Below, one piece after another: positions 22,980 through 39,223 of a DNA stretch of 64,000 nucleotides. Origin of the DNA: Colwellia sp. (lineage in GTDB: Bacteria > Pseudomonadota > Gammaproteobacteria > Enterobacterales > Alteromonadaceae); contig JAPHTO010000031.1 of the NCBI GenBank assembly GCA_026196955.1, positions 1 to 64,000 of the forward strand. Reading direction: 5' to 3'. The notes below the pieces were generated by a model. The model did not search any database. It saw only the letters and a list, made by a program, of their open reading frames with translations, and was not told the DNA's origin. How positions within the stretch are numbered: position 1 is the first letter of the stretch; each line of letters opens with the position of its first letter. The position numbers and the translations under genes are program-made.

Positions 22980-23134
22980 ACGGAGAAGCCATAATATAAA
23001 TATCCATAACAAACACCAAAAGCTTTTTACATGATAATTATTTTATCTTACCCTTTGAAAAGGCTAGATTAAGCAAAAATAGATTAACCCCAGAACAAAT
23101 CACTTTAATAAGTAAAACGAAACTTGAGATTAAC

Positions 23135-24193
23135 ATGACTGATAACTTCATCACCATCAATGGTAGAAAAATAGGCCCCGCATTTAAGCCCTACATCATT
23201 GCTGAATTATCAGCCAATCATAATGGTAAAATAGAAAAAGCACTTGAGAGTATTGAAGTTGCAGCAAAATGTGGTGTTGATGCGATAAAAATTCAAAGTT
23301 ATACGCCTGATACTATGACCATTGACTGTGATAAAGAAGACTTTCAAGTGCAAGGCGGTTTATGGGATGGTTATAAACTTTATGATCTTTATGATTGGGC
23401 ACAAACCCCATTTGAATGGCATGAACAACTTTTCAATAAAGCCAAAGCCGTGGGCGTAACATTATTTTCTACCCCGTTTGATGAAACGGCTGTCGATTTA
23501 TTAGAGTCGCTAAACGCCCCTGCTTATAAATTGGCTTCTTTTGAAATCACTGATTTACCCTTAATTAAACGCATTGCAAAAACCGGCAAGCCTTTGATTA
23601 TTTCAACTGGCATGGCAAATTTAGAAGAAATATCAGATGCCATTAACACCGCAAGAAACAATGGTTGTCAGGAGTTGGTAGTGCTACATTGCATTAGCGC
23701 TTACCCTGCACCGATTGAACAAGCAAACTTAGCGACAATTGCCGATATTAGTCAACGATTTAACGTGATTGCTGGCCTTTCTGATCATACATTAGGCACA
23801 GTAGTGTCAGTTACTAGCATTGCCTTAGGCGCTTGTTTAATTGAGAAACACTTCACCTTAGATAGAAATGATAAAGGCCCTGATTCCGAGTTTTCATTAG
23901 AGCCAAGCGATCTAGTGCGACTAGTCAATGAAACCAAAGCAGCTCACCAAGCAATAGGTAACGCTGGTTACGAGAGAAAACCCGTTGAAGAAGCTAGCAT
24001 GAAGTTTCGGCGTTCGCTATATTTTGTCAAAGATATTAAGCAAGGTGAGATTATTACTGAACAACACTTAAGCAGAATACGACCCGGTTACGGTTTATCT
24101 CCTAAGTACTATCAACAATTACTTGGCAAAAAGGTCAAGCAAGACATCTCCCGTGGTACGGCGACATCTTGGGATTTAATTAAACAAGAATAG
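23135..24193 (+). CDS. pseI: PseI, pseudaminic acid synthase
   Basis: PseI condenses 6-deoxy-AltdiNAc with phosphoenolpyruvate. The 352-residue NeuB-family protein has IIAELSANHNGKIEKALE near the N-terminus, DAIKIQSYTP, KLASFEITDLPLI and IEKHFTLDRNDKGPDSEFSL, and a C-terminal antifreeze-like SAF domain (FVKDIKQGEIITEQHLSRIRP). Upstream, the same frame stays open for 45 codons (from 23000) with no ATG, GTG or TTG, so I keep the ATG at 23135. No clear promoter was found in the 155-base gap. Confidence 0.95.
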   Translation: MTDNFITINGRKIGPAFKPYIIAELSANHNGKIEKALESIEVAAKCGVDAIKIQSYTPDTMTIDCDKEDFQVQGGLWDGYKLYDLYDWAQTPFEWHEQLFNKAKAVGVTLFSTPFDETAVDLLESLNAPAYKLASFEITDLPLIKRIAKTGKPLIISTGMANLEEISDAINTARNNGCQELVVLHCISAYPAPIEQANLATIADISQRFNVIAGLSDHTLGTVVSVTSIALGACLIEKHFTLDRNDKGPDSEFSLEPSDLVRLVNETKAAHQAIGNAGYERKPVEEASMKFRRSLYFVKDIKQGEIITEQHLSRIRPGYGLSPKYYQQLLGKKVKQDISRGTATSWDLIKQE

Positions 24194-24205
24194 CGGAGCT
24201 CATTC

Positions 24206-24814
24206 GTGATTACGACCCAAAAATCAAACGCTATTTTATTCCTCGGAGACTCACAATCGCCGTTGCTTCATTGGTTAGCAGAGCAAGAAAGTAACCTGAT
24301 ACAAACCAGTGACAAAATAACGGCTGACTTCATTAAAACAAATAATATTCAATGTATTATCAGTTATGGCTATCGGCATATTATTAAAAGAGATGTATTG
24401 GATATATTGCCGAGTAATGTTTTTAATTTGCATATTTCATTGCTTCCGTGGAACCGCGGGGCAGATCCAAATTTCTGGAGTTTTATCGATAATACCCCCA
24501 AAGGCGTGACTATCCATCATATAGATGAAGGAGTTGATACTGGTGATATCATTGCTCAGCAAGAAGTGACCTTTACCAGTGCAAAAGAAACCTTAACCAG
24601 CTCATACCAACTATTGCAGCAAACAATAGAGGCACTATTCAAACTACATTGGCCTTCCCTCAAAAAAGGCGTTGGGCAACGTAAAGCACAAGTTGGCAAA
24701 GGTACAAGTCATAGAGTTGGAGATAAAGCGGCATTGGCGCACCTATTAACTGAAGGTTGGAACACGCCAGTCACGGTATTAGAGCGTCATGCTAAAAAAG
24801 CTCAAAAAAAATAA
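24206..24814 (+). CDS. Formyltransferase-family protein (sugar N-formyltransferase candidate)
   Basis: This 202-residue protein is a single Formyl_trans_N domain. The catalytic Asn and His are present in VFNLHISLLPWNRGADPNFW, and the Asp in HIDEGVDTGDIIAQQ. Relatives use N10-formyl-tetrahydrofolate to formylate amino sugars such as UDP-4-amino-sugars. Here it could acylate the PseC-type amine in place of, or after, acetylation. The start is GTG, with GGAG about 10 bases upstream. It follows pseI by 12 bases and is the last gene before an internal promoter. Confidence 0.8.
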   Translation: MITTQKSNAILFLGDSQSPLLHWLAEQESNLIQTSDKITADFIKTNNIQCIISYGYRHIIKRDVLDILPSNVFNLHISLLPWNRGADPNFWSFIDNTPKGVTIHHIDEGVDTGDIIAQQEVTFTSAKETLTSSYQLLQQTIEALFKLHWPSLKKGVGQRKAQVGKGTSHRVGDKAALAHLLTEGWNTPVTVLERHAKKAQKK

Positions 24815-24862
24815 ATTTATTTAAATAAAAACAAACAGTAAAGTAGATAACACTTAAAGCCT

Positions 24863-24877
24863 TGGCATCTAACTTGC
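24863..24877 (+). promoter_or_regulatory. Sigma54 promoter inside the sugar locus, before the amidation trio
   Basis: TGGCATCTAACTTGC keeps the full TGGCA-N7-TGC core with TTGC at -12; only the C after TGGCA is changed to T. The transcript would start near 24889, about 46 bases before the wbuX-like ATG. The 120-base gap it lies in holds no gene. Confidence 0.75.
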
Positions 24878-24934
24878 TAATTTAACTATATATTGAAAAC
24901 ATCCAGTAAACGTTTAGAGATTGGACATATAATC

Positions 24935-26119
24935 ATGCAAAAATGTACCGCCTGTAATTTACCTGAAACCTATGAAACCATTGAATTTGATGAAAATGGA
25001 GTCTGTAATATATGCCGTCAAAAACAGCATAAAGATCAAAATATAGATTGGCAAAAGCGCGCCGAGATGTTGGCACGCGTAGTGGAAAAGCATCGAGGTA
25101 AATACGAGTATGACTGCATTTTACCCTTCTCAGGGGGGAAAGACTCTACCTATACTCTTTGGTATTTAGTAAAACATTTTAATATTCGTCCGCTTGTTGT
25201 GCAGTTTAATCATGGCTTTATGCGCGATACTTTATTAGAGAATAATCAACGTACTTTCAAAAAGCTTGGTGTTGATGTTATTTCCTTTACCCCAAATTGG
25301 AAGCTAGTGAAACGATTAATGTTAGAAACATTGGTTCGTAAGGGCGACTTTTGCTGGCATTGTCATACGGGAATTTTTGCATACCCTATGCATATTGCCT
25401 TGAAATACCAAGTGCCATTGATTTTCTGGGGAGAGCCTTCATCGGAATACACCGCTTATTATAATTATGAAGATGATGAGGTAGAGCAAGTAGATGAAAC
25501 GCGCTTTAATCGCTTTATCAATTTAGGTATAACGGCAGAAGACATGTATTCGATGATCAAAGATGATTATCAATGTGATCCTCGCGAGCTTACTCCTTAC
25601 ACTTATCCTAAACTTAGAGATTTGAAAAAACTTAAATATCAGTCTGTTTGCTTAGGCTCTTATATCCCATGGGATGTAAAAGCCAATACTAAGCTAATTG
25701 AAGACGAGCTCGGTTGGCGTGGCGATCAAGTAGAAGGTATGCCGTGGGACGAATACCCTTATGAAAAAATAGAATGTTCAATGCAAGGCATGCGTGATTA
25801 TATAAAATATTTAAAACGGGGTTATAGCCGTGTTAGCCAAATGACAGCGCTTGATTTACGTAACGGTAGAATAGCAAAAGAGCATGCAGACAAGTTAATT
25901 GCAGACTATGAAGGCAGAAAACCACCATCACTCAACTTATTTTTAGAGTATTTAGGGATCAGTGAAGATCAATTTAACCATATTGTTGCCAAAACCGTAG
26001 TCCCGCCTTTTAAACCTGATTTTGAAGGGATGGAATATGCCCCTAAAACCAGTGATTTTGACCGCTGGTATCGTGAAGATCCACAAGACAGAGGCATAAT
26101 AGCCAAGAGCTCGGTGTAA
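24935..26119 (+). CDS. N-acetyl sugar amidotransferase (WbuX/WbpG/PseA family)
   Basis: Members of this family convert an acetamido group on a sugar to acetamidino, using ammonia from a HisH/HisF-like pair. The 394-residue protein has a zinc-ribbon N-terminus (CTAC ... CNIC), the ATP-PPi loop motif LPFSGGKDSTYTLWY, GDFCWHCHTGIF and WGEPSSEYTAYYNY. The open frame begins at a TTG (24893), but the ATG at 24935 places the CxxC motif at the N-terminus as in relatives. Acetamidino forms of pseudaminate and legionaminate are known on flagellins. The exact target sugar here is inferred. Confidence 0.88.
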   Translation: MQKCTACNLPETYETIEFDENGVCNICRQKQHKDQNIDWQKRAEMLARVVEKHRGKYEYDCILPFSGGKDSTYTLWYLVKHFNIRPLVVQFNHGFMRDTLLENNQRTFKKLGVDVISFTPNWKLVKRLMLETLVRKGDFCWHCHTGIFAYPMHIALKYQVPLIFWGEPSSEYTAYYNYEDDEVEQVDETRFNRFINLGITAEDMYSMIKDDYQCDPRELTPYTYPKLRDLKKLKYQSVCLGSYIPWDVKANTKLIEDELGWRGDQVEGMPWDEYPYEKIECSMQGMRDYIKYLKRGYSRVSQMTALDLRNGRIAKEHADKLIADYEGRKPPSLNLFLEYLGISEDQFNHIVAKTVVPPFKPDFEGMEYAPKTSDFDRWYREDPQDRGIIAKSSV

Positions 26120-26128
26120 TAAAATAGC

Positions 26129-26758
26129 ATGATAGGTATCCTTAATATTGGTTTAGGCAATGTGCAATCTGTTTACAATGCTATTTATGAAAATGGTTAT
26201 GATCCGGTATTTATAAACACACCTGAACAGCTAGCTGATTTGAGTCACTTTATATTACCCGGCGTTGGTAACTTCAATGCGGTTATGAAACGTCTAGAGC
26301 AGCTTGGCTTTGTTAGCGCAATCAATGACTTAATTGCTCGTGGCACACCAACCTTAGGTATATGCCTTGGGATGCAACTACTGGCAACAACAGGGGTAGA
26401 AGGGGGTGAGATTAAAGGCTTAAACGCCATTAGTGCCAAGGTGCCAGCCATAACGCCTCTTCAGGGCTTAAGAGTGCCTCATGTTGGTTGGAATGAAGTT
26501 AATTTTTGCCAAAAACATCCTGTTTTTGAAGAGATCAAAGACGGGCGAGATTTTTATTTTGTTCATAGCTACCATGTAACATGCCAGCACAGTAAAAATG
26601 TTATTGCCACGACAGATTATGGAGAGAGTTTAACTTGTGTTATCGCCACTAAAAACGTTATTGGTGTACAATTCCACCCAGAAAAAAGTCAAAAGAATGG
26701 TATGCAACTACTCGAAAACTTTTGTGAATGGGATGGCTGCTTTGAACAAAACACGTAA
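26129..26758 (+). CDS. HisH-like glutaminase of sugar amidation
   Basis: This 209-residue class-I glutamine amidotransferase has the nucleophile Cys79 in TLGICLGMQLLA, the oxyanion region LPGVGNF and the His-Glu pair in GVQFHPEKSQ. It should hydrolyse glutamine and feed ammonia through its HisF-like partner. It sits between the amidotransferase and the hisF-like gene and is not in a his operon. I therefore call it the WbuY/HisH2 type rather than the histidine-pathway enzyme. Confidence 0.87.
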   Translation: MIGILNIGLGNVQSVYNAIYENGYDPVFINTPEQLADLSHFILPGVGNFNAVMKRLEQLGFVSAINDLIARGTPTLGICLGMQLLATTGVEGGEIKGLNAISAKVPAITPLQGLRVPHVGWNEVNFCQKHPVFEEIKDGRDFYFVHSYHVTCQHSKNVIATTDYGESLTCVIATKNVIGVQFHPEKSQKNGMQLLENFCEWDGCFEQNT

Positions 26759-26772
26759 AGTGGAAAGAGTTA

Positions 26773-27534
26773 ATGCTTAAAAAACGTATTATTCCCATGA
26801 TGCAACTGCTTAATGAGCAGTTAGTGAAAACCTGTCAATTTGACAGTTGGCGCAATGTCGGCGATCCAGTAAAAAGCGCGAGTGTTTATAACTCTCAGTA
26901 CACAGATGAATTAGTATTACTCAACATAAATCGAGAAAACCGCAGTCTAGAGCAATTGGCTCAGCTTATTCCTGATATTGCCCAAGTAAGCTTTATGCCC
27001 TTATCTGTTGGCGGGGGTATCAATAGCCTTGAGGATGCAAGCTATTTGATCAATCAAGGGGCTGATAAAATAATCGTTAATTCTAGTGTCTATCAAGACC
27101 CGACACTTATTACTCAAATAGCCACCAAATTTGGTCAACAAGCTGTAGTGGTTAGTATAGATATTAAAACAACCGAACTTGGTAAATATCAACTTTATTC
27201 ACACTGCGGCAAACAGCTGGAAGAGATCAGCTTAGCTGAGCATATTAACCAGTGCCAGCAAGCAGGTGCTGGAGAATTTATGATCCAATCTATTGAGCAT
27301 GACGGTATGATGTCAGGCTTTAATATTCCTTTATTGAAACAAGTAATGTCGCTCGCTACCATTCCTGTTATAGGCTGTAGTGGCTCAGGTGATTATCAAC
27401 ACTTAAGAGAAGCTTTTGTTGAAACAGACGTTAGCGCACTGGGCTGTGGTAGCTTATTTAACTTTTCTGATAGCAATCCTATTCGCGCTAAAAACTATCT
27501 TACTAATTATAATATTCCTTTTAAAAAGGTGTAA
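26773..27534 (+). CDS. HisF-like subunit of sugar amidation (WbuZ/HisF2 type)
   Basis: This 253-residue TIM-barrel protein is HisF-like: KKRIIP at the N-terminus, MPLSVGGGINSLEDASYLI, and VVVSIDIKT with the second conserved Asp. The first catalytic Asp of HisF, residue 11 in the CLDV motif, is replaced here by Gln (MMQLL at residues 9-13). It therefore should not make the imidazole ring. Its likely role is as an ammonia-channelling partner of the HisH-like glutaminase. The stop overlaps the next start by one base. Confidence 0.87.
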   Translation: MLKKRIIPMMQLLNEQLVKTCQFDSWRNVGDPVKSASVYNSQYTDELVLLNINRENRSLEQLAQLIPDIAQVSFMPLSVGGGINSLEDASYLINQGADKIIVNSSVYQDPTLITQIATKFGQQAVVVSIDIKTTELGKYQLYSHCGKQLEEISLAEHINQCQQAGAGEFMIQSIEHDGMMSGFNIPLLKQVMSLATIPVIGCSGSGDYQHLREAFVETDVSALGCGSLFNFSDSNPIRAKNYLTNYNIPFKKV

Positions 27535-28625
27535 TGATGTTGCTACCTACTCATAACAAGCAAACAGTGCCCGTTAATTTTTCAGCGTTAAAAAATATAG
27601 TCTTAATTGGCGGCGGTGACTTAATGGCTGCTAGCGCCAAAATATTTCATACTTTGGGTTTCAATGTCACCATTGTTGCAGCCACTCGTCATATCAATGA
27701 GCAACTAGTATTAAACAATGAAACATTCAGTCAGGCTTGCCAACCATACGCTATTGCTCAACATACAATTAGCGATATAAACCAGTTAAGCAAGCAACAA
27801 CTCAATGACATAATACCTGAAGATGCTATGGCAATCTGTTTTGGTCCAGCTTGGGTGTTTAACAAGCAAATCATACAAACTTTTCATTATGGTATGTTTA
27901 ATATTAATGCTATTCCTATTCCGCATTATTTAGGTGGCGCTCACTATACTTGGCAATTACTCAATAACAATCGTGATGGAGGGTGCTTTTTTCAACAAAT
28001 AACCGCACAAGTCGATCAAGGAGATATATTTGCGAAACACCAATTTAGCATTAGCCAACAAGCAAGCACACCGCATGAATATTTTGTAGAAAATATCAAG
28101 CAAGGCGTTATTTTTATTGAAGAACTCGCACAAATGTTTATTCAAGGTGTTACTTTTTCACCTACTGCCTACGCCCCGTTAAATGACGATAGGCTTTATT
28201 TACCGCGTTTGAGAACAGATAAGCAAGGCTATATAAACTGGCAATGGAGCGCAGCAGATATTGTCAGTTTCTGCCAAGGTTTTGATAGCCCTTATCTGGG
28301 TGTAGCCAGTTTTATAGCCGATAAAAAACTGCGCTTTAAACAAATGAAACAAGTTAACCTAACGGATAATAACCATAATGCCATAGCTGCTATGCATCCC
28401 TTTTGCTCAGGCCTTATTGTCAGAAAAGTAAAACAAGCTAACAACACAACGATTATTGTTGCCGCACAGAATGGCTTTATTGAATTAGGAGATGTAATCG
28501 ATGAACAAGGTGTTTGTGTAAAAGCGAGTTTAAAAGAAGGTATGCGACTACATACCCCACAAAAGCTACTTGATGAAGCATTAGCATATCAAGTCGTCAT
28601 TGATGGCTCAGGTTTTAAGGATTAG
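27534..28625 (+). CDS. Formyltransferase-like protein with altered active site
   Basis: This 363-residue protein resembles methionyl-tRNA formyltransferase. It has an N-terminal Rossmann start (NIVLIGGGDLMAASAKIF), a Formyl_trans_N core and a C-terminal Formyl_trans_C-like domain (from about residue 225, LRTDKQGYINWQWSAADIV). The core motif reads FNINAIPIPHYLGGAHYTW, so the usual catalytic His of the NxH pair is Asn. The late Asp is present (QVDQGDIFAK). It may be a variant or inactive enzyme, or use the nearby His. The TAATG overlap couples it to the hisF-like gene. Two ATGs are adjacent (27534 and 27537). Confidence 0.72.
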   Translation: MMLLPTHNKQTVPVNFSALKNIVLIGGGDLMAASAKIFHTLGFNVTIVAATRHINEQLVLNNETFSQACQPYAIAQHTISDINQLSKQQLNDIIPEDAMAICFGPAWVFNKQIIQTFHYGMFNINAIPIPHYLGGAHYTWQLLNNNRDGGCFFQQITAQVDQGDIFAKHQFSISQQASTPHEYFVENIKQGVIFIEELAQMFIQGVTFSPTAYAPLNDDRLYLPRLRTDKQGYINWQWSAADIVSFCQGFDSPYLGVASFIADKKLRFKQMKQVNLTDNNHNAIAAMHPFCSGLIVRKVKQANNTTIIVAAQNGFIELGDVIDEQGVCVKASLKEGMRLHTPQKLLDEALAYQVVIDGSGFKD

Positions 28626-28629
28626 CCAT

Positions 28630-30006
28630 ATGAGTGTACTTTCTTTAGTTAAAAAAATATTCCCTTTTAGTTACTCCATAACAGGTAGTGGTAACGATAA
28701 AGCTATTGCTCAATATAGAGATGAGGTTAATTTTACTGTTCATGAATATGCTTCAGGGCAAACTCTAAACGGTTGGTTCATACCACATGCTTGGCAGGTC
28801 AATACCGCCTGTATCTACCATGGTAATAATCTTATTTATGATGCAAAAAGTTCACCGCTTGGCGTTGCCAGCTTATCACCCAGTTTTTGTGGAGAATTAT
28901 CACTCAGTGAATTACAAACACACTTAGCCAGCAGTGAACTATTACCTGATGCGATATTATATCAATGGCAAAATTTATATCGTCCAAAAGAGATGTCTTG
29001 GGGGATTTCTATACCTCACAAGCTCAGAGAACAGCTAGAAGATGTTAAATACCGTGTAGAAATAAAAACAGAATTAACGCCAAGTACCATGAAAGTACTT
29101 GATTACTTACTGCCAGGCGAAAGTAAAGAGACTATAGTAATCAATGGTCATAATTGTCACCCCTTTCAGGCTAATGATGATATTTCAGGCTGTGCGGTTG
29201 CCATCAGAGTAATACAGGCTTTAGAAAAAAAATCACTCAAGCAAAAGCTAAAATATAGTTATCGAGTCATTATTGCGCCTGAGCTGCATGGTCCTATGTT
29301 TTGGCTAAATGAGATGAGCCAAGAACAACAAGACTCTCTCAAGGGATGTATATTACTAAAATCTGTAGGCAATAAAGCCAGCATGCGATTACAGCGTAGT
29401 TACTTAGGCAATCAAAAAATAGATCAAGCAGCGCAGTCTGCTTTTGCAAACCAATATGGTGAATTTGAACAAGGGGAGTTTCGAAGTATCTATGGTAATG
29501 ATGAAACGGTTTTTGAAGCACCGCCCTATAATATTCCTACCATTTCATTAACACGCTGGCCATTTAATGAATACCATAGCGATCTAGACACACCTGAAAC
29601 ACTGTCCGAGCAACATTTACAAGACAGTGTCGATTTAGTGCTTAATATTATTGAACACTATGAAAATGATAAACCAAAAGAAATCACAAAGCCTAGCCAA
29701 CACAGCTCAACAACGTCGAAGCAAGATGCCCCGAATCAGTACTACAAAATTAATTTTAAAGGCTTGGTGTGTTTATCTGCATACGGCTTGTATAAATCAG
29801 TTCCTCCAGTAAGTGAAGCAGGTGTAGATTACAACTCTCTACATGGCCGTTGGAATAAGTTAATGAACTGCTTGCCAAGAGATCTTGATAATAATATGAC
29901 CGTAAATGAGTTAGCAAAAAAATATCAATTGCCCTATGATGAAATTCAACATTATTTACAGCAATGGCTTGAACATGGCTTAGTTAAGATTGAAAATACC
30001 CCTTAA
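28630..30006 (+). CDS. DUF4910 zinc-peptidase-like protein with winged-helix tail
   Basis: This 458-residue protein matches the COG4310/DUF4910 architecture, which has an M28-like aminopeptidase fold. It opens with KKIFPFSYSITGSGND. The probable metal ligands lie in VINGHNCHPFQANDDISG, APELHGPMFWL and FNEYHSDLDTPE. A C-terminal winged helix follows (VNELAKKYQLPYDEIQHYLQQWL). Its function is not established; in a sugar locus, cleavage of an amide on a sugar precursor is a reasonable guess. The ATG at 28630 follows AAGGA by 9 bases, so I do not use the ATG at 28600 inside the preceding gene. Confidence 0.7.
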   Translation: MSVLSLVKKIFPFSYSITGSGNDKAIAQYRDEVNFTVHEYASGQTLNGWFIPHAWQVNTACIYHGNNLIYDAKSSPLGVASLSPSFCGELSLSELQTHLASSELLPDAILYQWQNLYRPKEMSWGISIPHKLREQLEDVKYRVEIKTELTPSTMKVLDYLLPGESKETIVINGHNCHPFQANDDISGCAVAIRVIQALEKKSLKQKLKYSYRVIIAPELHGPMFWLNEMSQEQQDSLKGCILLKSVGNKASMRLQRSYLGNQKIDQAAQSAFANQYGEFEQGEFRSIYGNDETVFEAPPYNIPTISLTRWPFNEYHSDLDTPETLSEQHLQDSVDLVLNIIEHYENDKPKEITKPSQHSSTTSKQDAPNQYYKINFKGLVCLSAYGLYKSVPPVSEAGVDYNSLHGRWNKLMNCLPRDLDNNMTVNELAKKYQLPYDEIQHYLQQWLEHGLVKIENTP

Positions 30007-30034
30007 AGTCCAACCTACTATTGATGGCTAAAAA

Positions 30035-30607
30035 ATGAGTTCAATTAAAATATCAAGTGCGCGAGTACCTTCAGTTTATTTACAAAGTATTTCTGAGCAA
30101 GATGCGAGCAATGAATATGTGCAATGGCTCAATGACCCTCTGGTAAATCAATATTTAGAAACACGCTTTTATCCACAAGACTTGTCTTCAGTACTTGATT
30201 TTATTCGTAATATTATCGCAAATCCCAATGAGCATTTATTTACCATTCGTTTAACAGAAAACAATAAGCATATCGGCAATATTAAAATTGGTGGCATAAA
30301 CACTCATCACAATGTTGGCGATGTTAGCTTATTTATTGGCGATAAAAATGCGTGGGGTAAGGGCTTGGCCAGCCAAGCCATTCAATTGATTTCTCGCTAT
30401 AGTATTGAACAACTGCACTTAAGAAAACTCTGCGCTGGTGCTTACCAAGCTAATGTTGGCAGTACTAAAGCTTTTTTAAATTCAGGTTATCAGCGTGATG
30501 GTGTGCTGGTTGACCATTATACATTTAACGGCCAACCAGTAGATTTAGTGCAGGTTTGCATATTTAATCATCAACTTGAACGTTTGCCTGAAATAACTAT
30601 TCAGTAA
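30035..30607 (+). CDS. GNAT-family N-acetyltransferase, PseH-like candidate
   Basis: This 190-residue protein is a RimJ/RimL-type GNAT enzyme. It has the substrate-side EYVQWLNDPLVNQYLETRF and the acetyl-CoA pyrophosphate loop AWGKGLASQAIQLI, followed by LRKLCAGAYQANVGSTKAFLNSGYQRDG. It is the only acetyltransferase in the locus. It is therefore the best candidate for the PseH step, N-acetylation of UDP-4-amino-4,6-dideoxy-AltNAc, although it lies far from pseBC. Its 3' end overlaps the convergent gene by 11 bases. Confidence 0.75.
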   Translation: MSSIKISSARVPSVYLQSISEQDASNEYVQWLNDPLVNQYLETRFYPQDLSSVLDFIRNIIANPNEHLFTIRLTENNKHIGNIKIGGINTHHNVGDVSLFIGDKNAWGKGLASQAIQLISRYSIEQLHLRKLCAGAYQANVGSTKAFLNSGYQRDGVLVDHYTFNGQPVDLVQVCIFNHQLERLPEITIQ

Positions 30608-32705
30608 CAAATATTTCTTTAAACATGGCAACAACCTGCGCCACTGTGGTGGATTTTACGTGGCGAGTGTCTGTTTCCCATGCATCTTCAACACATTCAG
30701 TCACTAGTTCATAACTTGGCAAATAATAGATGTCTTTGTTATTACTAACAAGTTGATCAGCGGCAACACGCAATACCGCTTTTGAATGACAATTAGCGCT
30801 AATAATATGCTGTTCATCCGCTCTGCCTGTTGCTAAAAACGGTATGGGTGAGACACTAATAATTAACTTAAAATCAGGGTTGTGCTGCTTAATAATATCG
30901 AAAAAACGCTGAATGTTTGCCACGTTTTCTTCAACACTCAATGTTTTATGTTTAACAAGATGATACATATTTTCTCTTGGATTACGCGACATAACAGTGC
31001 CATCTGCTAATTGCCAGCACTCATTTAACCCTAACGTCACAACAAACACTTGGCATTGTAAAAAAGCCTGTTTTACCGCTTCAACATGCTGTTCATAATC
31101 AGCTAAGTATGCTTGTTGTGAGTTAAAGGCAACATTTTCACGGTATGGGTCTAATAAACACCCTGTGTCAGACTTGATCAAAAGCTTATTAAATGTTCGT
31201 AAACCAAAGGCCTTCTCTGCTAACTGGCAAAAGCTTGGCGTGTTAAACAAAATACCATAATTGGCACAAAATTTAGCAATGGTATCTCCTGGTGTATAAC
31301 CGTCAACCTGCATGCCAGAATAAGGATTATCGTTACGCTCTGTAATCACATAGTTATACCCTTCTTGCTGAAAATACTTAGCTATTTCGAAAGCAAAGCA
31401 ACTTCCCGCAGAGCCAATAGCCGTATTCATATCCATAATCGGCTGCTTTTTTGCGTAAGGTAACATGTCGTATTTAGACTGTGGGTGTTTTTCGTGCTCT
31501 GGGTTTGGCCAAAAAACGGCATTTGGATTTGGCTTATTACCTAGCGCGTAACGACCCATGCTATCAATAAAGTTAGTTTCATACTCTGCAAGATCTGATA
31601 ATGCATCTAGCCACTTGGCTTCCATCAATTTCTCTGGCGACAATTGCTCAATGATAATTTTTTTCACTAACTTTAATAGCGCAAAAACAGAATGGCATTC
31701 GACTAAATTTGGATCGACTTTTTTAATATGATTGGCAATGGCGACCGCAGTACTCAGTTTTTCAATTATATTCGCTAATAAATATTCCACATGCTCGAAA
31801 TTCTCAATGCTATGAGCTAAGCCGATCTCAATATGTGCATTGGGCTGCATAGTTTTCTCAGTAATTTTGTTACTGATTTGAGTGAAATCTCGAAAATCTT
31901 GACAGTCGTAAATTGGAAAAAAATATTCTTCGGCCACTTTTTTCCAATGTAGTTCACTGGGGACGATACAAAAATTTAGCGCATACCTTGGTACACCAAC
32001 TTTTGGTGGGATGGCCCGGTGAGCTAATTGGTATGGATTAAATATGACTGTATCACCTACATTCGCCTTAACCCCTTTCGGCTGATAATTTATATCAAAG
32101 TGTTGGCATAAAGGTTCAATGTCAATATTACGCTCATGCATTTGATTAAATATATAACCAATATCTTTTAACGCTAAAGTCGATTTTTCATCAAGATAAC
32201 CAGTATCGCTGCCATGCTCTTCATAACCATTAAGGTAAGTGATTAGTTTTAAATGTTTAACAGGGCCACCATCACAGTGCCATTTGGTAGAATACCACTC
32301 TTCCTCATCATCAATGTGTACTTTATTGATAGACCACCAAAAAACACAATACTCACTATCGAAATAAGATCTAAGGTGTTCATCTACTTCTTCGGTGAGT
32401 ACTTGTGGCAATATCACTTCTAGCACAGAAGGATGCTGAATTCCTTGCTGATCATTTTCAAATTCGGTTATTAACGACTGGCAAAGCTCTTGCGGGATAT
32501 GATTACGTAAAACATGAATATGTTCATGCTTCAGGGGAGTCGCAACAGAATCACGTTGATAGGCCGATTGCGCTCTGTTAGAAATAGATTGATAGCCATG
32601 CTGGTGCTCAAAAAGCTTAAAAATTTCTTTATCAGCGTTCGGCATCAAATGGTAAATATGATCGCCAATGACTATTTTCTCTTCCCTTAAATCTTCTGCT
32701 GGCAT
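30597..32705 (-). CDS. 2OG-Fe(II) oxygenase-like / GSCFA fusion protein
   Basis: This 702-residue protein has two recognisable halves. Residues 60-250 look like a phytanoyl-CoA/prolyl-hydroxylase-type oxygenase, with the iron triad HCD (His143, Asp145) and His229 in LAHRAIPP, and a candidate 2-oxoglutarate Arg240 in VPRYALNF. A helical linker (about 290-420) leads to a C-terminal GSCFA domain (SGNH-hydrolase-like). That domain begins at IGSAGSCFAFEIAKYF (motif 434-438) and has VVTLGLNECWQ and SVSPIPFLATGR. I know no characterised homologue. Between maf and the sugar genes, it may hydroxylate and acylate or deacylate a glycan. Confidence 0.7.
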   Translation of the reverse strand: MPAEDLREEKIVIGDHIYHLMPNADKEIFKLFEHQHGYQSISNRAQSAYQRDSVATPLKHEHIHVLRNHIPQELCQSLITEFENDQQGIQHPSVLEVILPQVLTEEVDEHLRSYFDSEYCVFWWSINKVHIDDEEEWYSTKWHCDGGPVKHLKLITYLNGYEEHGSDTGYLDEKSTLALKDIGYIFNQMHERNIDIEPLCQHFDINYQPKGVKANVGDTVIFNPYQLAHRAIPPKVGVPRYALNFCIVPSELHWKKVAEEYFFPIYDCQDFRDFTQISNKITEKTMQPNAHIEIGLAHSIENFEHVEYLLANIIEKLSTAVAIANHIKKVDPNLVECHSVFALLKLVKKIIIEQLSPEKLMEAKWLDALSDLAEYETNFIDSMGRYALGNKPNPNAVFWPNPEHEKHPQSKYDMLPYAKKQPIMDMNTAIGSAGSCFAFEIAKYFQQEGYNYVITERNDNPYSGMQVDGYTPGDTIAKFCANYGILFNTPSFCQLAEKAFGLRTFNKLLIKSDTGCLLDPYRENVAFNSQQAYLADYEQHVEAVKQAFLQCQVFVVTLGLNECWQLADGTVMSRNPRENMYHLVKHKTLSVEENVANIQRFFDIIKQHNPDFKLIISVSPIPFLATGRADEQHIISANCHSKAVLRVAADQLVSNNKDIYYLPSYELVTECVEDAWETDTRHVKSTTVAQVVAMFKEIFVTE

Positions 32706-32817: not shown

Positions 32818-34977
32818 TTAGTCGTTCCACCAATCTGACGTTGTAATGTGGGGAACTAAATAATTCTCTTGATAATAAATAGGCGCTTCAGTTAAAAAGT
32901 TTTGAAAGTGTTGCTTAGCTTTATTAAAGTCTGCAACGGCGACACTTTCATCACGCGCTTCATACAAAATTCGCATCAACATTGCTTGATAGTGTAAAAG
33001 CGTACCATCTAGCAATAAAGAAAAGTGGGTATAGTCCCCTGTTTCTAACTCTGCTGCTGCTCTTGATTGCGCTCGGATCATGGTTACGCCTTCAGAGAGG
33101 CTTGTCACAGGCTTATCAATTACATCGCTCAAGTTTTGGCAAATTTCTGCAAACTTTTTACAATCAACTTTTTCAATAACACGTTGATAAAGTGCATGTT
33201 CTTCATCTAACCAAGCTGAGTGTGTATATGCATCATCAACCAATTGCTTTTTATCAATGTCAACTTTATGGCTTAAATCAATGACTCTCGCAGGTTTCGC
33301 TTTCGATATTTTTGCACCATCGCTTAAATTAACACAGTGGATATCTGGACGAGATGCCAACAGTTTTTCAATCATAGCGCGCGACATGTTGAAAAAATCA
33401 TTACAAACAAACTCACCGCCAAAGTTACCTTCAATACAGTTTTGTGAGTCTTCCGTTAGGTATAACGAAAGATCTTCCCCGTCTTTATTATAATAAATAC
33501 TTTTTGAGCTATGATGCTGCCCCCCTTGCTTGTGACCTAAATCAACGCCGAATAAATAAAACTCTCTAAAACCTAAATAATATCCCATGGAGATTGCAGT
33601 ATTAGAAACGGTTGGGTTTATATATACAGTCGGTTCAAAAAGATCTTTACCAATAACATCATTAACAATTATATCGGTTGAAGGCTCTCTTGATTTGGGG
33701 CACATAATAGCGCGATCAAATAGTTTAAAGGTTTCAGGGTGTACTGTTGATGGAGCCAATAACATATGGGTGCGCACTAAATCAGCATTACCATAATCTT
33801 TAACTTTTGCGGCTACCGGCAAGGTTCGCTCTTGCTCACAATGAAAATCAACTTTTATACCGTAATTCATCAAGGCGCTCATCGCTGAGCCACAACTAAT
33901 GATGATAGCTTTATCTTGATATTTTTTAACCAGCTCAATACTTTGATCTAGAGAAGGACCATTACCAACAATAAAAACAGGTACATCCGTCAAGTTTTCA
34001 TTAAATTGTGCTGACTTTTTTAATAGCGGAATATTGCTTTTTAAATTACTCAGTGTGTGAGATAACGACATAACACCGTCATCAAAGAATCCCCAACCTT
34101 GGATCATTTCATAAAAACGGCTTTTATAAATTCCCAATAATTTTTCAATTACGGGTGAGTGATAATGTACATAACCAAAAGTCTTTACGACATCATAGCG
34201 ACCATTTTGATATGTTTGATATAACAAGTCATCGAAGAATTCATTATCTTGCACACCAAGAGACAAGTGCAAATTACATTTTTGCGTATTTAAATGATCA
34301 AAAATATATTGCCAATTAGCTGTGTATAACGAGGCATAAAAGAGATCAATCTCTGGCTCAATAATGTATAAGTTATTAATTTTATGCTGGTTAATCAATA
34401 ACTCAATATGATAACCAGCTCCAGCACCAAACAACACTAAAGAGCCAATAGTTTCTGGTAAGCCTTTATTAGGAGAGTTTTCTTGCTCAACTCTATTCGT
34501 CAATATACGAAGCACTTCATTTAGATGCGTTGAGTGAATAAAGTTTCCTCTATTCTCTTCGTTCATTTCAAAAGTTGAATGCGTTGACTGAGGCGATTGC
34601 TGGTATTGTGTTAACTGCGCTGTAGCCATCAAATAGGCAGGATATTGATAAATATGCTGCTGGATTTCTTCATCAAAAATATTGGCAAAACCATCCACTA
34701 TTTCAATAAAATATCGACTAGGCTGGTAGTCTTTCACAACGTCATATACTTCTGGAAAGTATTCTTGGAGTGCAACAAGATTTTTTTCAAATTGGGCCAA
34801 TAATATATCTTCATTACAAGCAAGCAACGACATAGTATCAGCTATGCTCTGTAGATTTTCTTCTGTTTCCGTTGACTGAGTTTGCCCTTTTAATTTGTGC
34901 TCAACGGCATGTGCTTTTTCTTCTAATAAGCGAATTTTTTCAACAAGCTCTGCTTGCGTAGGGATATTTTTTGACAA
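32818..34977 (-). CDS. maf: Maf-family flagellin glycosyltransferase (DUF115)
   Basis: Motility accessory factors transfer nonulosonic acids onto Ser/Thr of flagellin in the cytoplasm. The roughly 719-residue protein has the DUF115/MptE-like core with VFIVGNGPSLDQSIELVKKY, IISCGSAMSALMNYGIKVDF, YINPTVSNTAISMGYYLGF and LFGVDLGH. A helical N-terminal region precedes the core (SLVLFGAGAGYHIELLI). The start is uncertain: the open frame reaches a TTG at 35001, but the TTG at 34977 has AAGG about 10 bases upstream and is used here. It is placed next to the flagellin assembly genes, as in other glycosylated-flagellin loci. Confidence 0.88.
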   Translation of the reverse strand: MSKNIPTQAELVEKIRLLEEKAHAVEHKLKGQTQSTETEENLQSIADTMSLLACNEDILLAQFEKNLVALQEYFPEVYDVVKDYQPSRYFIEIVDGFANIFDEEIQQHIYQYPAYLMATAQLTQYQQSPQSTHSTFEMNEENRGNFIHSTHLNEVLRILTNRVEQENSPNKGLPETIGSLVLFGAGAGYHIELLINQHKINNLYIIEPEIDLFYASLYTANWQYIFDHLNTQKCNLHLSLGVQDNEFFDDLLYQTYQNGRYDVVKTFGYVHYHSPVIEKLLGIYKSRFYEMIQGWGFFDDGVMSLSHTLSNLKSNIPLLKKSAQFNENLTDVPVFIVGNGPSLDQSIELVKKYQDKAIIISCGSAMSALMNYGIKVDFHCEQERTLPVAAKVKDYGNADLVRTHMLLAPSTVHPETFKLFDRAIMCPKSREPSTDIIVNDVIGKDLFEPTVYINPTVSNTAISMGYYLGFREFYLFGVDLGHKQGGQHHSSKSIYYNKDGEDLSLYLTEDSQNCIEGNFGGEFVCNDFFNMSRAMIEKLLASRPDIHCVNLSDGAKISKAKPARVIDLSHKVDIDKKQLVDDAYTHSAWLDEEHALYQRVIEKVDCKKFAEICQNLSDVIDKPVTSLSEGVTMIRAQSRAAAELETGDYTHFSLLLDGTLLHYQAMLMRILYEARDESVAVADFNKAKQHFQNFLTEAPIYYQENYLVPHITTSDWWND

Positions 34978-35047
34978 AATGATTAACCTTAACGAGAACA
35001 ACTTAGCCTAGAATGGTGACTATAGCGCTTCTAGGACATTTTGGAAA

Positions 35048-35410: not shown

Positions 35411-35836
35411 TTAACCTTGTTGCTCTTTAGCACGTAACAATTGGTGACCTTCTGTTTTATCTGCTTCAGACATTTCAGCCCAAGCATCTCTTAATGGTTT
35501 CAATAAAGAAATAACTTCATCCAAAATGCCAACATTCAACGTCGCACTGGCATTCATTAAGCGATCGGCACAGTATTCATATAGCGCATCAAAGTTAGCT
35601 GATATTTCAGGTTGAGCATCATTATCAAGTGATGTTCTTAACGAATTGATAATATTAACAGCTTTGGTGATTTTTTCTGCTTTGACGGTAAAATCTTTTC
35701 GCTCAATTGCACCTTTAGCAAAAGCAATACTTTCCAATGCGCCATTAAATAACATTAAAATAATAGTGTGCGGCTCTGCAGCAAGTAAGCTACTTTCACG
35801 ATTTACATTTTGATAGGTTTTTAAATTACTTCTCAT
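35411..35836 (-). CDS. fliS: FliS, flagellin export chaperone
   Basis: FliS binds the C-terminus of flagellin to prevent premature polymerisation. The 141-residue protein has the family N-terminus LKTYQNVNRESSLLAAEPHTIILMLFNGALESI (key residues Y, Q, L, P, H) and the C-terminal LLKPLRDAWAEM. The frame opens at a GTG (35845), but the ATG at 35836 with AAGG about 9 bases upstream is preferred. It sits 39 bases after fliD. Confidence 0.95.
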   Translation of the reverse strand: MRSNLKTYQNVNRESSLLAAEPHTIILMLFNGALESIAFAKGAIERKDFTVKAEKITKAVNIINSLRTSLDNDAQPEISANFDALYEYCADRLMNASATLNVGILDEVISLLKPLRDAWAEMSEADKTEGHQLLRAKEQQG

Positions 35837-35875
35837 TAGATTCACCTTAGTTAATTATTAGTAATAACTACACTG

Positions 35876-37240
35876 CTAATCGTCACTATTTCCAGTAATA
35901 TTAGATAAAGATGACTTAACATACTCAGCTGTAGCATTATACCCTGCTAAAGTTGCATCAAGGGCAGTAAAACGCTTCCTCAATGTTTCTTCATAAGAGC
36001 GCAACCTCTCTTCTAACTCTGTCCACTCTTGACCAATGTTCGAAATTTGCTCATTTAAACTTGTTTCTCTAGAAGTTAATACCCCTGAAGAATCAATGTA
36101 AGTGTCAATGAACGAAGTCATTTGGGTCGCTATACCATCAGTTGAAGCAAATATCTCGCCAACTTGATCTAAGTTATCCTTTAATGCTGCATCTAAACGG
36201 TCAGACCCACTAGGTAGCGAACTATCACTAAATGATGAAACTTCCAGTTTACCTTCTTTATTTAAATCGATGCCTATTTTACTCAACGAGTCCAAGCTAC
36301 CTGTTAAGCCAGTAACACTATTAATCACCACATCTGTCAGCTTTTGTTTTACTTGTCTAATATTAGGATCAAATGCTAAACGCCCTAATTTAGGGGCTCC
36401 TAGACCAGTAATATTATCCATTAAGGCATTAAAGCCATCAACAAATTCATTGATGAGCTCTTTAGCATTCTCTTCATCTTGGGCGATAGATAATGTCGCT
36501 GGTGCACCTGTATTCACTTTTTTTGCTGTAATAGTGACATCTTCAATGACATTTTTAAATTCATTGGTCTCTTTGGTGATGGTATTACCGTCAACAACAA
36601 TAATGGCATCACTAGCAGTTTGTTCAGTGGTATTATTGGTCGAAATATTATCAAGCGATGCATCAGAGGTGGTAACTGTCAAATTATTGGCTAAACCTGT
36701 TACCGTAGAGCTATAGACTAAATATGAGCCAGCATCACTATTAATGATGTTCGCAGTCACTCCAAAATTTTCTGATTGGGCATTTATTTTGTCACGTATT
36801 GCAGAAAGATCATCAGCGGCATCAATAGCCACATCAAAAGTATTCGCTCCGGCGGTCAATGTTAATGTACCCGAGCCAACAGTATCAGCAGAACTAGCAA
36901 ATGCTGCTGACTTTAACCTACTTCCTTGGGCTAACTGTTGAACTTCAATGGAGAACTCACCATTACTGGCAAAACCATTAGTGGTAACGCTAACATCTTC
37001 GGTTGATACAGCAATGGTTTGCTGATTAAACGCATCATCTTTAGCAAGTTTTTCAAGGGTGGTATTAAAGGTAGATAAAGCAGATTTAAAACTACCAATA
37101 CCTGACAGTTCAACATTTAGCCTTTCTTCTTTTTCTTGTAAACGAATCTCTGTCGGAATTGCTTCAGCATCAATAAAGGCTGTAACTATACCTTCTAAAT
37201 CTAAACCTGATCCTATCCCCAATGAGGTAATGTTAGGCAT
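35876..37240 (-). CDS. fliD: FliD, filament cap protein
   Basis: FliD caps the growing filament and helps flagellin polymerise. The 454-residue protein has the N-terminal FliD domain (SLGIGSGLDLEGIVTAFIDAE) and the C-terminal domain (YIDSSGVLTSRETSLNEQI, then LRSYEETLRKRFTALDATLAGYN), with long coiled ends. It is preceded by a weak variant promoter, and a terminator separates it from the upstream flagellin. Confidence 0.95.
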   Translation of the reverse strand: MPNITSLGIGSGLDLEGIVTAFIDAEAIPTEIRLQEKEERLNVELSGIGSFKSALSTFNTTLEKLAKDDAFNQQTIAVSTEDVSVTTNGFASNGEFSIEVQQLAQGSRLKSAAFASSADTVGSGTLTLTAGANTFDVAIDAADDLSAIRDKINAQSENFGVTANIINSDAGSYLVYSSTVTGLANNLTVTTSDASLDNISTNNTTEQTASDAIIVVDGNTITKETNEFKNVIEDVTITAKKVNTGAPATLSIAQDEENAKELINEFVDGFNALMDNITGLGAPKLGRLAFDPNIRQVKQKLTDVVINSVTGLTGSLDSLSKIGIDLNKEGKLEVSSFSDSSLPSGSDRLDAALKDNLDQVGEIFASTDGIATQMTSFIDTYIDSSGVLTSRETSLNEQISNIGQEWTELEERLRSYEETLRKRFTALDATLAGYNATAEYVKSSLSNITGNSDD

Positions 37241-37366
37241 AATAACTCCAAAAATTCTCGTTTACTTTCATGCTATTTGAGCATCAATATTAACAATATG
37301 TTTATTACAAAATACATTGAACAATTTACAGCTAATGCGCTGTACCATTTAATGACTAATCTATCT

Positions 37367-37381
37367 TCAAAATATATGCCA
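37367..37381 (-). promoter_or_regulatory. Variant sigma54-like site upstream of fliD
   Basis: The minus strand reads TGGCATATATTTTGA. The -24 box TGGCA is intact, but -12 is TTGA rather than TTGC. It lies about 127 bases before the fliD ATG. The same kind of variant precedes flgB. The call is weak because the -12 GC is normally the most conserved part. Confidence 0.3.
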
Positions 37382-37401
37382 AAAACACTCTTTTTACTAT
37401 T

Positions 37402-37430
37402 AAAAAAGGCGACTAATGATTAGTCGCCTT
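37402..37430 (-). terminator. Terminator of the fliD-proximal flagellin
   Basis: AAGGCGACTAA and TTAGTCGCCTT form a perfect 11-base stem with a 3-base loop. On the minus strand the stem is followed by T residues. It lies 28 bases after the stop of the flagellin at 37458-38270. Confidence 0.85.
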
Positions 37431-37457
37431 AATATACCTTCTAAAGCGACTATTTAA

Positions 37458-38270
37458 CTATAGTAGCGATAAAGCAATTTGTGGTTGCTGGTTTGCTTGC
37501 GCTAGCATTGAGCTTGACGCTTGTTGTAACACTGAATTACGTGCTAATTGTGCAGATTCAGCGGCATAATCAGTGTCTTCAATACGTGAACGAGATGCTG
37601 ATACATTTTCTGCAGCATTATCATTACTACGAATGACACTTGAAAAACGGTTTTGCTTCGCACCTAAGTCAGAACGCGTGCTGTTTACTGTTGACAATAC
37701 ACTGTCTAAATCGGTTATACGCGATTGAGCACCATCAAAGGTTAATAAAGAGCCAGATGCGCCAATAGTTCCCGAATCAAAATCTTGCGCAATTGATACT
37801 GAAATAGTCTGGCCTGCTTCTGCACCTATTTGGAACTCAGCAGCATAAGTACCATCAAGTAAGTTAGTGCCACCAAAAGAGGCTTGCTCAGAAATACGAG
37901 TTAGCTCTAATTCTAACTCACCATACTCAGTATCTAGTGCCGTTAAATCAGCGGCTGTGTTTGAGCCATTAGACGCTTGTACCGCCAAAGTTCGCATACG
38001 TTGTACTGTATTCGTATACTCATCTAGTGCACCTTCAGCCGTTTGCGCTAAAGAAATAGCGTCATTAGCATTACGAGAGCCTTGATTCAAACCATTAACT
38101 TGTGAAGTTAAACGGCTAGATATTTGTAATCCAGCGGCATCATCTTTAGCACTATTGATACGCTTACCTGAGGATAAACGCTCATAACTCGTGCTTAAGT
38201 CATTGGTTGCTTTTGACAACTGACGCTGAGAATTTAATGATGCGATATTACTGTTAACACTTAAGGCCAT
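37458..38270 (-). CDS. Flagellin 4 (fliD-proximal paralogue)
   Basis: This 270-residue short flagellin consists of D0/D1 domains only. Its N-terminus ([19 protein letters not shown]) and C-terminus ([18 protein letters not shown]) are shared with the neighbouring paralogues, and the central part (residues 105-190) varies. No large D2/D3 insert is present. The promoter is a sigma28-type site, 38354-38380. It sits between flaG and fliD, apart from the other three flagellins. Confidence 0.96.
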   Translation of the reverse strand: MALSVNSNIASLNSQRQLSKATNDLSTSYERLSSGKRINSAKDDAAGLQISSRLTSQVNGLNQGSRNANDAISLAQTAEGALDEYTNTVQRMRTLAVQASNGSNTAADLTALDTEYGELELELTRISEQASFGGTNLLDGTYAAEFQIGAEAGQTISVSIAQDFDSGTIGASGSLLTFDGAQSRITDLDSVLSTVNSTRSDLGAKQNRFSSVIRSNDNAAENVSASRSRIEDTDYAAESAQLARNSVLQQASSSMLAQANQQPQIALSLL

Positions 38271-38353
38271 AATACTTTCCTTTACGGTTGTTACTTATCT
38301 TTTCGTTAGAAATATTGAAAATGATATTTCAAATATTTCCTGCTCTGATACCT

Positions 38354-38380
38354 ATATCGACATGTGTTGAGAAAGCTTTA
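38354..38380 (-). promoter_or_regulatory. Sigma28 promoter of flagellin 4
   Basis: The minus strand reads TAAAGCTT, 11 bases, then GTCGATAT, close to the FliA consensus TAAAGTTT-N11-GCCGATAA. The transcript start would be about 77 bases before the flagellin ATG. Confidence 0.75.
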
Positions 38381-38587
38381 ACATTTATTAGCATTATTTA
38401 TAAAGCAATGAGCCTTTGGTGCAAAAAGTCGTTAAAAATCGGCTTCTTTAGGGTAAATAAATTTTGTAGACAGCTTAGTTATAGGCATTTTCAGTGCCTA
38501 TTGAATGATTGAGCCGTTAAATGCTCAATTCATTAATGGCATGATGAACAATGCAAGTAACGGTATTTAACGTTTAATGACAGACAT
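38381..38587. other. Gap between flagellin 4 and flaG, with two small hairpins
   Basis: Upstream of the flagellin-4 promoter are two close inverted repeats: ATAGGCA/TGCCTAT (38481-38501) and ATTGAGC/GCTCAAT (38508-38529). The stems are of about 7 pairs each with short loops. No reading frame or further promoter is seen. They could add to flaG termination or mark a regulatory RNA segment. Confidence 0.35.
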
Positions 38588-38612
38588 AAAAAAAGCCACT
38601 GAAGGCCTTTAT
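38588..38612 (-). terminator. Terminator of flaG
   Basis: A GC-rich stem (AAAGGCC/GGCTTT with one bulged G) is followed on the minus strand by seven T residues. It lies 24-48 bases after the flaG stop codon. Confidence 0.65.
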
Positions 38613-38635
38613 TTATTATATGCTAGTAGCTATTT

Positions 38636-39115
38636 TTAAACACTTTCGTCCAAAAACAGCCCTGTTTTACTACTTATTTGCTCTTGTAGCTCTTTAATGC
38701 GAGTTGCCATTGAAATTATTTCATCTGAAGGAAATTGTCTAATCAACTCCTGGCTTTTAACATCAATAATTTTTATAACGGTTCTGCCTGAATCTTCATC
38801 AACTAAGAAATCAACGTTCTTATTCACAGAATTTACAAAATTTGCAACTGATTCGATAGATTCTTCAATTAAGCTTTTTGACTGCTCTGAATCCTGCTCT
38901 GCTTGTTTATCAAGTTTAAGCTGGGCATTTTCAGCAGCTTCTGCTGCTCTTAATTGCTCGACACTTGTTACAGGCACTTGATTACTATTTGCTAATTCGT
39001 TCTGCTGCTCACTTGCCGCCAACTCAGCTCGCTCATGTTTCGTGCTTACCTGACTCGGCGCAGAAAAATCTGCACTTATATTGGCGCCTTGAGACGTTAT
39101 TGCTGATGTGGACAT
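38636..39115 (-). CDS. flaG: FlaG, flagellar filament-length protein
   Basis: The 159-residue protein has a long, Ser/Gln/Glu-rich disordered N-terminus and a C-terminal FlaG domain (VDFLVDEDSGRTVIKIID, then QELIRQFPSDEIISMATRIKELQEQ). In Vibrio flaG lies between flagellin and fliD genes and affects filament length. Here a fourth flagellin gene lies between flaG and fliD. Confidence 0.9.
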   Translation of the reverse strand: MSTSAITSQGANISADFSAPSQVSTKHERAELAASEQQNELANSNQVPVTSVEQLRAAEAAENAQLKLDKQAEQDSEQSKSLIEESIESVANFVNSVNKNVDFLVDEDSGRTVIKIIDVKSQELIRQFPSDEIISMATRIKELQEQISSKTGLFLDESV

Positions 39116-39172
39116 AAGTGTCCCTCCCTACTTTAGCTATAACTAACCATTTAACTTAGCAACCCTAAACGA

Positions 39173-39204
39173 CTAAAGGACACCCATCTTGAGTGCCCTT
39201 TAAA
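39173..39204 (-). terminator. Probable terminator of flagellin 3
   Basis: AAAGGGCAC and GTGTCCTTT (with one G-U pair) form a 9-pair stem around an 8-9 base loop, 20-48 bases after the stop codon at 39224. The T run afterwards is poor, so the strength is uncertain. Confidence 0.55.
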
Positions 39205-39223
39205 TAGCATTAGGGCATCACTA

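Follow-up and report, generated by a model that had tools for sequence, protein, structure and literature searches.

A fused oxygenase-like and GSCFA protein in a flagellin-glycosylation locus of Colwellia sp.

What can be learned about the role of an unusual fusion protein from its relatives and its genomic surroundings? In a stretch of 64,000 nucleotides from Colwellia sp. (assembly GCA_026196955.1, contig JAPHTO010000031.1, positions 1 to 64,000; in the following, the window), one open reading frame (ORF) joins an N-terminal oxygenase-like domain to a C-terminal GSCFA domain. Conserved residues, a modelled fold and the joint loss of residues in one copy argue that the N-terminal half is very probably a PhyH-like oxygenase dependent on Fe(II) and 2-oxoglutarate (2OG), and active as such; that the fusion serves the flagellin-glycan pathway is likely. 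The full model, built by analogy, in which it would hydroxylate and then acylate the flagellin glycan, we consider equally apt to be right or wrong. A first-pass annotation of this DNA had already described a single 702-residue protein with an iron triad at His143, Asp145 and His229 and a C-terminal GSCFA domain, all of which we find in place:

30597..32705, minus strand: ORF of the fusion protein, 702 residues (open reading frame and homologues)
31920..32543, minus strand: predicted Fe(II)/2OG oxygenase domain, residues 55-262 (conserved columns, profile matches and predicted fold)
32271..32279, minus strand: His143-Cys144-Asp145, putative HxD iron ligands, invariant in 12 aligned copies
32019..32021, minus strand: His229, putative third iron ligand, invariant in the 12 copies and Tyr in the fourth copy of genome G073
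31986..31988, minus strand: Arg240, presumed 2OG-binding arginine, invariant in the 12 copies and Gln in the fourth G073 copy
31536..31919, minus strand: helical linker, residues 263-390, poorly conserved (alignment and model)
30621..31418, minus strand: GSCFA domain, residues 430-695 (Pfam match to PF08885)
31398..31403, minus strand: Ser435-Cys436 of the GSCFA motif, at the SGNH block I position (alignments)
30660..30671, minus strand: Asp679-x-x-His682, at the SGNH block V position, present in 15 of 15 fusion copies

The assignment of the N-terminal half begins with its metal site. The HxD/E...H triad of His143, Asp145 and His229 is kept in every one of 12 copies in an alignment (A1) that excludes the divergent fourth copy of G073, and so is Arg240, which follows His229 by 11 residues; this is the usual position of the 2OG-binding arginine, about 10 residues past the second histidine. 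When the 12 orthologous N domains were searched against Pfam at a permissive limit of E 10, taking the best E per family, PF13640 (2OG-FeII_Oxy_3) was matched by four (best E 1.1e-5), PF03171 (2OG-FeII_Oxy) by three (best E 0.0018) and PhyH by one (E 0.12). A stand-alone relative, L069, matches an oxygenase family profile at E 2.6e-5, under the curated cut-off. Structure prediction with AF2 (AlphaFold2) was poor from the single sequence, with a predicted local distance difference test score (pLDDT) of 36.2; with a 29-row alignment, in which whole proteins are mixed with single domains, it reached a mean pLDDT of 85.5 and a predicted template modelling score (pTM) of 0.58, and the model displays a double-stranded beta-helix. 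Every one of the best 50 of 1488 Foldseek matches in the PDB (limit E 10) is a 2OG oxygenase, so that the fold proposed by the first-pass annotation stood up to this comparison. Headed by PtlH (E 9.2e-7), these 50 include ColD, KanJ, HygX, the proline hydroxylase H11 and EctD, and span aminoglycoside enzymes (KanJ and HygX) as well as collagen prolyl 3-hydroxylase complexes; their TM-scores, normalised to the target, range from 0.21 to 0.56. By sequence, neither the whole protein nor either domain profile gave more than insignificant matches in the PDB.

One copy stands apart, the fourth in G073, which has Gln in place of His143, Tyr in place of His229 and Gln in place of Arg240, and retains Asp145, together with Ser435, Cys436, Asp679 and His682 of the GSCFA half. 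It alters seven of the 38 N-domain columns that are invariant in the 12 copies, and the changes fall on three of the four presumed iron and 2OG residues as against four of the 34 other columns (Fisher p 0.015, in a post hoc test picked once the copy had been seen). Such a copy, with its iron site gone and its GSCFA residues kept, would also suit a scenario in which the oxygenase step plays an incidental or a regulatory part, such as that of an oxygen-dependent switch, and the main activity is acyl transfer to a sugar hydroxyl that already exists; an O-acetylated pseudaminate is known in Campylobacter jejuni (PMC3068675). Against this stands the invariance of the iron ligands and Arg240 throughout the 12 aligned copies, and we hold the scenario to be very unlikely.

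The C-terminal half belongs to GSCFA, matching PF08885 with E 1.4e-44 and 153 bits, compared with a Pfam cut-off of 25 bits. All 15 fusion copies carry S435, G484, N561 and H682, at the positions assigned to SGNH blocks I, II, III and V; the asparagine at 561 is found in 15 of 15 fusion copies and in none of 35 other readable GSCFA sequences. By these residues, the fusion appears to contain a complete SGNH site of its own, and the order of strands and helices in the modelled C-terminal half looks SGNH-compatible by eye.

In an alignment of 52 GSCFA sequences and a reference row, 50 of them readable at the His682 column, this column divides the family into two classes. Class 1 lacks the histidine (n = 24) and has, in 21 of its 24 members, a histidine five residues past the serine; an SGNH-like or WcbI partner accompanies 23 of the 24, L085 being the exception. 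Eight of these partners are fused, seven of them SGNH-like and the other WcbI; a further 15 are adjacent, again with a single WcbI, the remaining 14 being SGNH-like. Of these 14, four are weak or motif-only (L016, L045, L084 and L094), and that of L016 is on the opposite strand. Class 2, which has the histidine, takes in every one of the 15 fusion copies along with 11 stand-alone proteins. For none of them was an SGNH-like partner detected with profiles (p1-p3) seeded from class 1 neighbours, which could miss unrelated partners; WcbI-like neighbours of class 2 genes were sought by a short motif only, around ten loci. For the fusion copies specifically, no SGNH-like partner lies within 1.5 kb, where L072 ends at a contig end and WcbI was not searched. 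With His682 in 15 of 15 copies and no SGNH-like partner detected, the fusion does not fit the pattern of the GSCFA protein PipG, namely absence of the block V histidine combined with a partner. Among loci fetched after the rule had been noticed, a partner was found for nine of ten class 1 genes and none of four class 2 genes; the resulting Fisher p of 0.005 is only indicative, because L086, L089, L091, L093 and L095 also seeded the profiles and both classes hold many close relatives. Outside the class counts stand L042 and L079, whose GSCFA is split between frames and whose aligned piece does not take in block V; L074, a piece without the GSC motif; and L083/L103, which falls under the hidden Markov model threshold and has a tail with the histidine and no partner seen. 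In L074, a contig-end fragment, the first residues (3-47) resemble an adapter-derived peptide, and the piece was trimmed ahead of alignment A4.

Several GSCFA loci deserve mention in their own right. WcbI is fused to GSCFA in Sinorhizobium fredii (L087 2122-4152) and adjoins it in Alloyangia pacifica (L092 1988-2881). At L088 2857-6793, a class 2 GSCFA gene adjoins an acyl carrier protein gene, with a ketoacyl-ACP (acyl carrier protein) synthase III gene near, neighbours that hint at an acyl donor. At L100 4201-7947, a nonulosonate-like cluster has a class 2 gene flanked on one side by a gene that weakly matches metallo-beta-lactamase and on the other by HisH/HisF-like genes.

That the fusion belongs to the flagellin-glycan pathway is argued by its setting in the window, which comprises:

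32818..35001, minus strand: maf flagellin glycosyltransferase gene, upstream of the fusion gene (PF20157, PF01973)
35411..42069, minus strand: fliS-like, fliD-like, flaG-like and four flagellin-like genes, upstream of maf
16501..30607, plus strand: pseudaminate-type nonulosonate cluster with PseB-, PseC-, PseG-, PseI- and PseH-like, amidotransferase/HisH/HisF-like and formyltransferase genes

The genes in 35411..42069 are named from their sequences alone. The fusion gene follows maf on the same strand after a gap of 112 base pairs (bp) and runs convergently into a GNAT gene (30035-30607), the last of the nonulosonate cluster, with which it overlaps by 11 bp; the position between sugar-tailoring genes and maf that the first-pass annotation had noted is thereby borne out. 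A scan for sigma-28-like promoters found no site above the set threshold directly upstream of the fusion gene, and a search of Rfam over 14000-46000 gave no match. The cluster itself is unusual: besides two formyltransferases it holds an aldo/keto reductase, a class III aminotransferase and a trio of amidotransferase/HisH/HisF-like genes, which suggests that its sugar bears formyl and acetamidino groups and perhaps one more amino group. Within it, 28600-30006 encodes a DUF4910/DUF2172 protein with similarity to M28 peptidases, whose homologues occupy the same place in G109 and G133.

The setting recurs with the protein. In stretches of no more than about 10 kb around the gene, each of the 11 carriers found (G000, G109, G133, G172, G186, G029, G073, G080, G523, G537 and TB64) has one or more homologues of window genes of the flagellin, maf, fleQ-like or pse type; among them, G523 and G537 hold the fusion in split or partial form only, where contigs end, and the flagellar link of G073 is only a partial maf-like ORF at a contig end. 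In G172, the fusion gene is flanked by flagellin genes.

The fusion occurs in few genomes but is genuine. Of 196 genomes sampled from the same family, eight, the window's own included, hold copies that span the whole protein or nearly so, and another 12 match part of it only. In the order sample (345 genomes), the sole match of such length is the window's own; with the N-domain profile, the class sample (369 genomes) returned the window and two genomes with stand-alone relatives, and the phylum sample (398 genomes) the window only. Five of the 39 genomes in the genus sample match: the window's own and G109 with the whole fusion, G523 with a fusion split over two contig ends, G537 with no more than a fragment where a contig ends, and G535 with a match confined to GSCFA. 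Pseudoalteromonas sp. TB64 also carries the fusion, in a copy without internal stops. A first scan of genome contigs with the single window protein as query found no relative. None of the other genomes' copies covering all or nearly all of the protein has an internal stop, and the plus strand of 30597-32705 holds many stops. A chance ORF or gene-prediction artefact is ruled out by the near end-to-end conservation in other genomes. So is a fusion by assembly error or frameshift, since stop-free copies come from several independent assemblies, in the eight family genomes and in Pseudoalteromonas sp. TB64.

Three copies stand in tandem in G029 and likewise in G073, where the degenerate fourth lies about 6 kb away (loci: L037 12172-18630; L039 1489-7948 and 14067-16328). 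A methyltransferase gene, confirmed by a family test, adjoins the tandem copies in G029, and a like-starting gene does so in G073. At L044 3155-5767 in G075, the surroundings of a stand-alone N-domain relative include an aspartyl/asparaginyl hydroxylase gene and others that by eye look like methyltransferase genes; the one of these that was tested had no Pfam match.

Is the pairing of the two activities peculiar to this protein? Two islands in other genera hold them as separate genes. In G016 (L104), a PhyH gene (E 7.6e-13) directly adjoins a stand-alone class 2 GSCFA gene, and in G062 (L105), a PhyH gene (E 1.2e-7) is one methyltransferase gene away from such a gene. Both islands include, by Pfam, a flagellin gene and a cytidylyltransferase gene, and both have a NeuB-type gene (PF03102 in G016, a PseI homologue in G062); the flagellin gene lies about 12 kb from the GSCFA gene in G016 and 7 kb in G062. 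Among the titles and abstract openings searched, we found no published description of islands of this type. A precedent outside flagella is the detoxin/rimosamide-like (DRL) pathway of Pseudomonas entomophila, which yields pseudotetraivprolide and was described in 2025 (PMC12828459): deletion of the dioxygenase gene pipE leads to non-hydroxylated products, and the GSCFA protein PipG, along with PipD and PipF, is required to O-acetylate the hydroxyl made by PipE on the proline ring of the peptide. The PipDFG complex can also yield an N-acetylated product (PMC12828459). The idea of hydroxylation followed by acylation, first raised in the first-pass annotation, has thus gained the two separate gene pairs and the Pip pathway as support, and the oxygenase-GSCFA pairing is now drawn from three sources, the fusion, the pairs and the Pip precedent.

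In the model we propose, the fusion would work in the cytoplasm as a tailoring enzyme with two domains, in the service of the flagellin-glycan pathway. Its N domain would bind Fe(II) and 2-oxoglutarate and hydroxylate a carbon of the pseudaminate-type sugar or of its N-acyl group, before or after Maf places the sugar on flagellin; the C domain, a putatively self-contained SGNH-type GSCFA enzyme (Ser435/Cys436, Gly484, Asn561, Asp679-His682), would add an acyl group, most likely acetyl, to the new hydroxyl. Of the two-step modification envisaged in the first-pass annotation, the architecture, the oxygenase fold and the flagellin-glycan setting have held; what we infer are the two reactions and the order in which they occur, the acyl donor, the direction in which the second one runs, the cytoplasmic location and the choice of sugar over peptide.

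As to direction, the GSCFA domain could act in the same pathway in reverse, as an esterase, taking off an O-acyl group or editing sugar that has been over-acylated, for which the full set of SGNH residues in the fusion would equip it. The sole functional GSCFA data found concern acetylation (PMC12828459), and WcbI, annotated as a putative acetyltransferase, lies beside GSCFA in one record and is fused to it in another, both of class 1; an esterase is, in our estimate, unlikely. As to substrate, a flagellin residue such as proline might be hydroxylated and then acylated independently of any glycan. The place of the G172 gene between flagellin genes, the proline hydroxylase H11 and collagen prolyl 3-hydroxylase complexes among the best 50 of 1488 fold matches, and the action of PipE and PipG on a peptide's proline ring (PMC12828459) would agree with this; yet the separate pair and most fusions lie among nonulosonate synthesis genes, and, according to a review, carbohydrate-active enzymes are known in all but two of the 11 SGNH families characterised (PMC9487903). 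We therefore judge a peptide substrate improbable and favour the sugar, on the strength of the nonulosonate neighbours.

A number of observations weigh against hydroxylation followed by acylation of the flagellin glycan by the fusion. Of the profile searches of both halves that the first-pass annotation had advised, only that of the GSCFA half succeeded outright: the N-terminal half of the window protein itself has no Pfam match at E up to 10 and no NCBIfam match. No SGNH fold for the C-terminal half is among the best 50 of 1488 Foldseek matches of the model. Compared by hhalign, the window's N domain matches the PhyH proteins of G016 and G062 with probabilities of 31.9 and 2.1 (E 4.9e-4 and 0.023), low values on account of which a recent common origin is not claimed. 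A PhyH neighbour accompanies two of the 11 stand-alone class 2 genes; none was seen for the other nine, which were inspected with a loose motif and by eye, not all by Pfam. Several stand-alone class 2 genes lie outside flagellar loci, three of them in loci that resemble GDP-sugar synthesis, one beside the HisH/HisF-like genes and one beside the acyl carrier protein gene. The fourth G073 copy, its oxygenase site broken and its GSCFA residues kept, implies that in this genome neither step need depend on the other. Among SGNH families, several consist of esterases, as tabulated in the review (PMC9487903). In the Pip system, the residues reported as important are Ser18 and His211 of PipF and Cys47 of PipG, a pipG deletion is rescued by pipFG and not by pipG alone, and pipDFG in E. 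coli gave no acetylation (authors' data not shown; PMC12828459). Finally, the aligned DRL-type GSCFA proteins (L075, L077, L095) lack the block V histidine, so that a transfer of function from Pip to the fusion crosses the class boundary.

Tentatively, and with somewhat less confidence than the two-step model itself commands, we suggest that the fusion represents a self-sufficient mechanistic class of GSCFA proteins, distinct from the partner-dependent class of PipG, which on more than one occasion has come together with PhyH-like oxygenases in islands of flagellin genes (as a fusion here, as neighbours in at least two other genera), and that its product may be a hydroxylated, O-acylated nonulosonate so far undescribed on any flagellum. 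If true, a step of hydroxylation plus acylation would be added to bacterial flagellin glycans. The split into partner-linked and self-contained GSCFA proteins predicts where the active site lies, and as the fusion would act in a pathway whose product, flagellin, is easily purified and weighed, GSCFA function becomes directly testable. This matters for a family placed in the SGNH clan that had neither a known activity nor a structure in a review of 2022 (PMC9487903), and for which the only functional data found date from 2025 (PMC12828459).

How does the fusion compare with known systems? Its parts belong to known families, and the published literature searched showed no instance of the fusion, of the class difference or of the flagellin link. 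The first-pass annotation knew of no described protein with this pairing, which holds in so far as we found no published report of a dioxygenase fused with GSCFA, and fails for the functional pairing of the two, since the Pip pathway already constitutes one (PMC12828459). Nor did titles and abstract openings yield a report of a PhyH or 2OG dioxygenase in flagellin glycosylation, and the two sections consulted of a paper on Shewanella oneidensis flagellin name no oxygenase or GSCFA gene (PMC3765264). The solved structures that match the modelled oxygenase best, PtlH, KanJ, HygX and the proline hydroxylase H11, share 12-16% identity with it in structural alignments. These four are not known to have a GSCFA domain. 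Other GSCFA proteins are fused to a partner as in the window protein, namely the WcbI-GSCFA protein of Sinorhizobium fredii and GSCFA-SGNH proteins of about 590 residues (for example L046 and L049), but the partner is WcbI or SGNH-like instead of an oxygenase, and the GSCFA domain lacks the block V histidine. Two Streptomyces plasmid clusters resemble Pip in having an adenylation or nonribosomal peptide synthetase (NRPS) gene, GSCFA, a small gene and TauD; in the first, the GSCFA protein, 29% identical to fusion residues 394-695, is encoded one gene from the dioxygenase, which is TauD-type, unlike that of the fusion. The islands of G016 and G062 resemble the fusion in combining a PhyH dioxygenase and a GSCFA protein that has the block V histidine, alongside flagellin and NeuB-type genes, and differ from it in having two genes rather than one and a PhyH of distant similarity. 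The Pip system differs in being made of separate proteins, in acting on a peptide natural product and in the need of PipG for PipF and PipD; the fusion, by contrast, carries a block V histidine itself, and no SGNH-like partner was detected nearby (PipG itself was left out of the alignment with the fusion). What the two would have in common is the order of events, a hydroxyl made by a dioxygenase and then O-acetylated in a step that needs a GSCFA protein.

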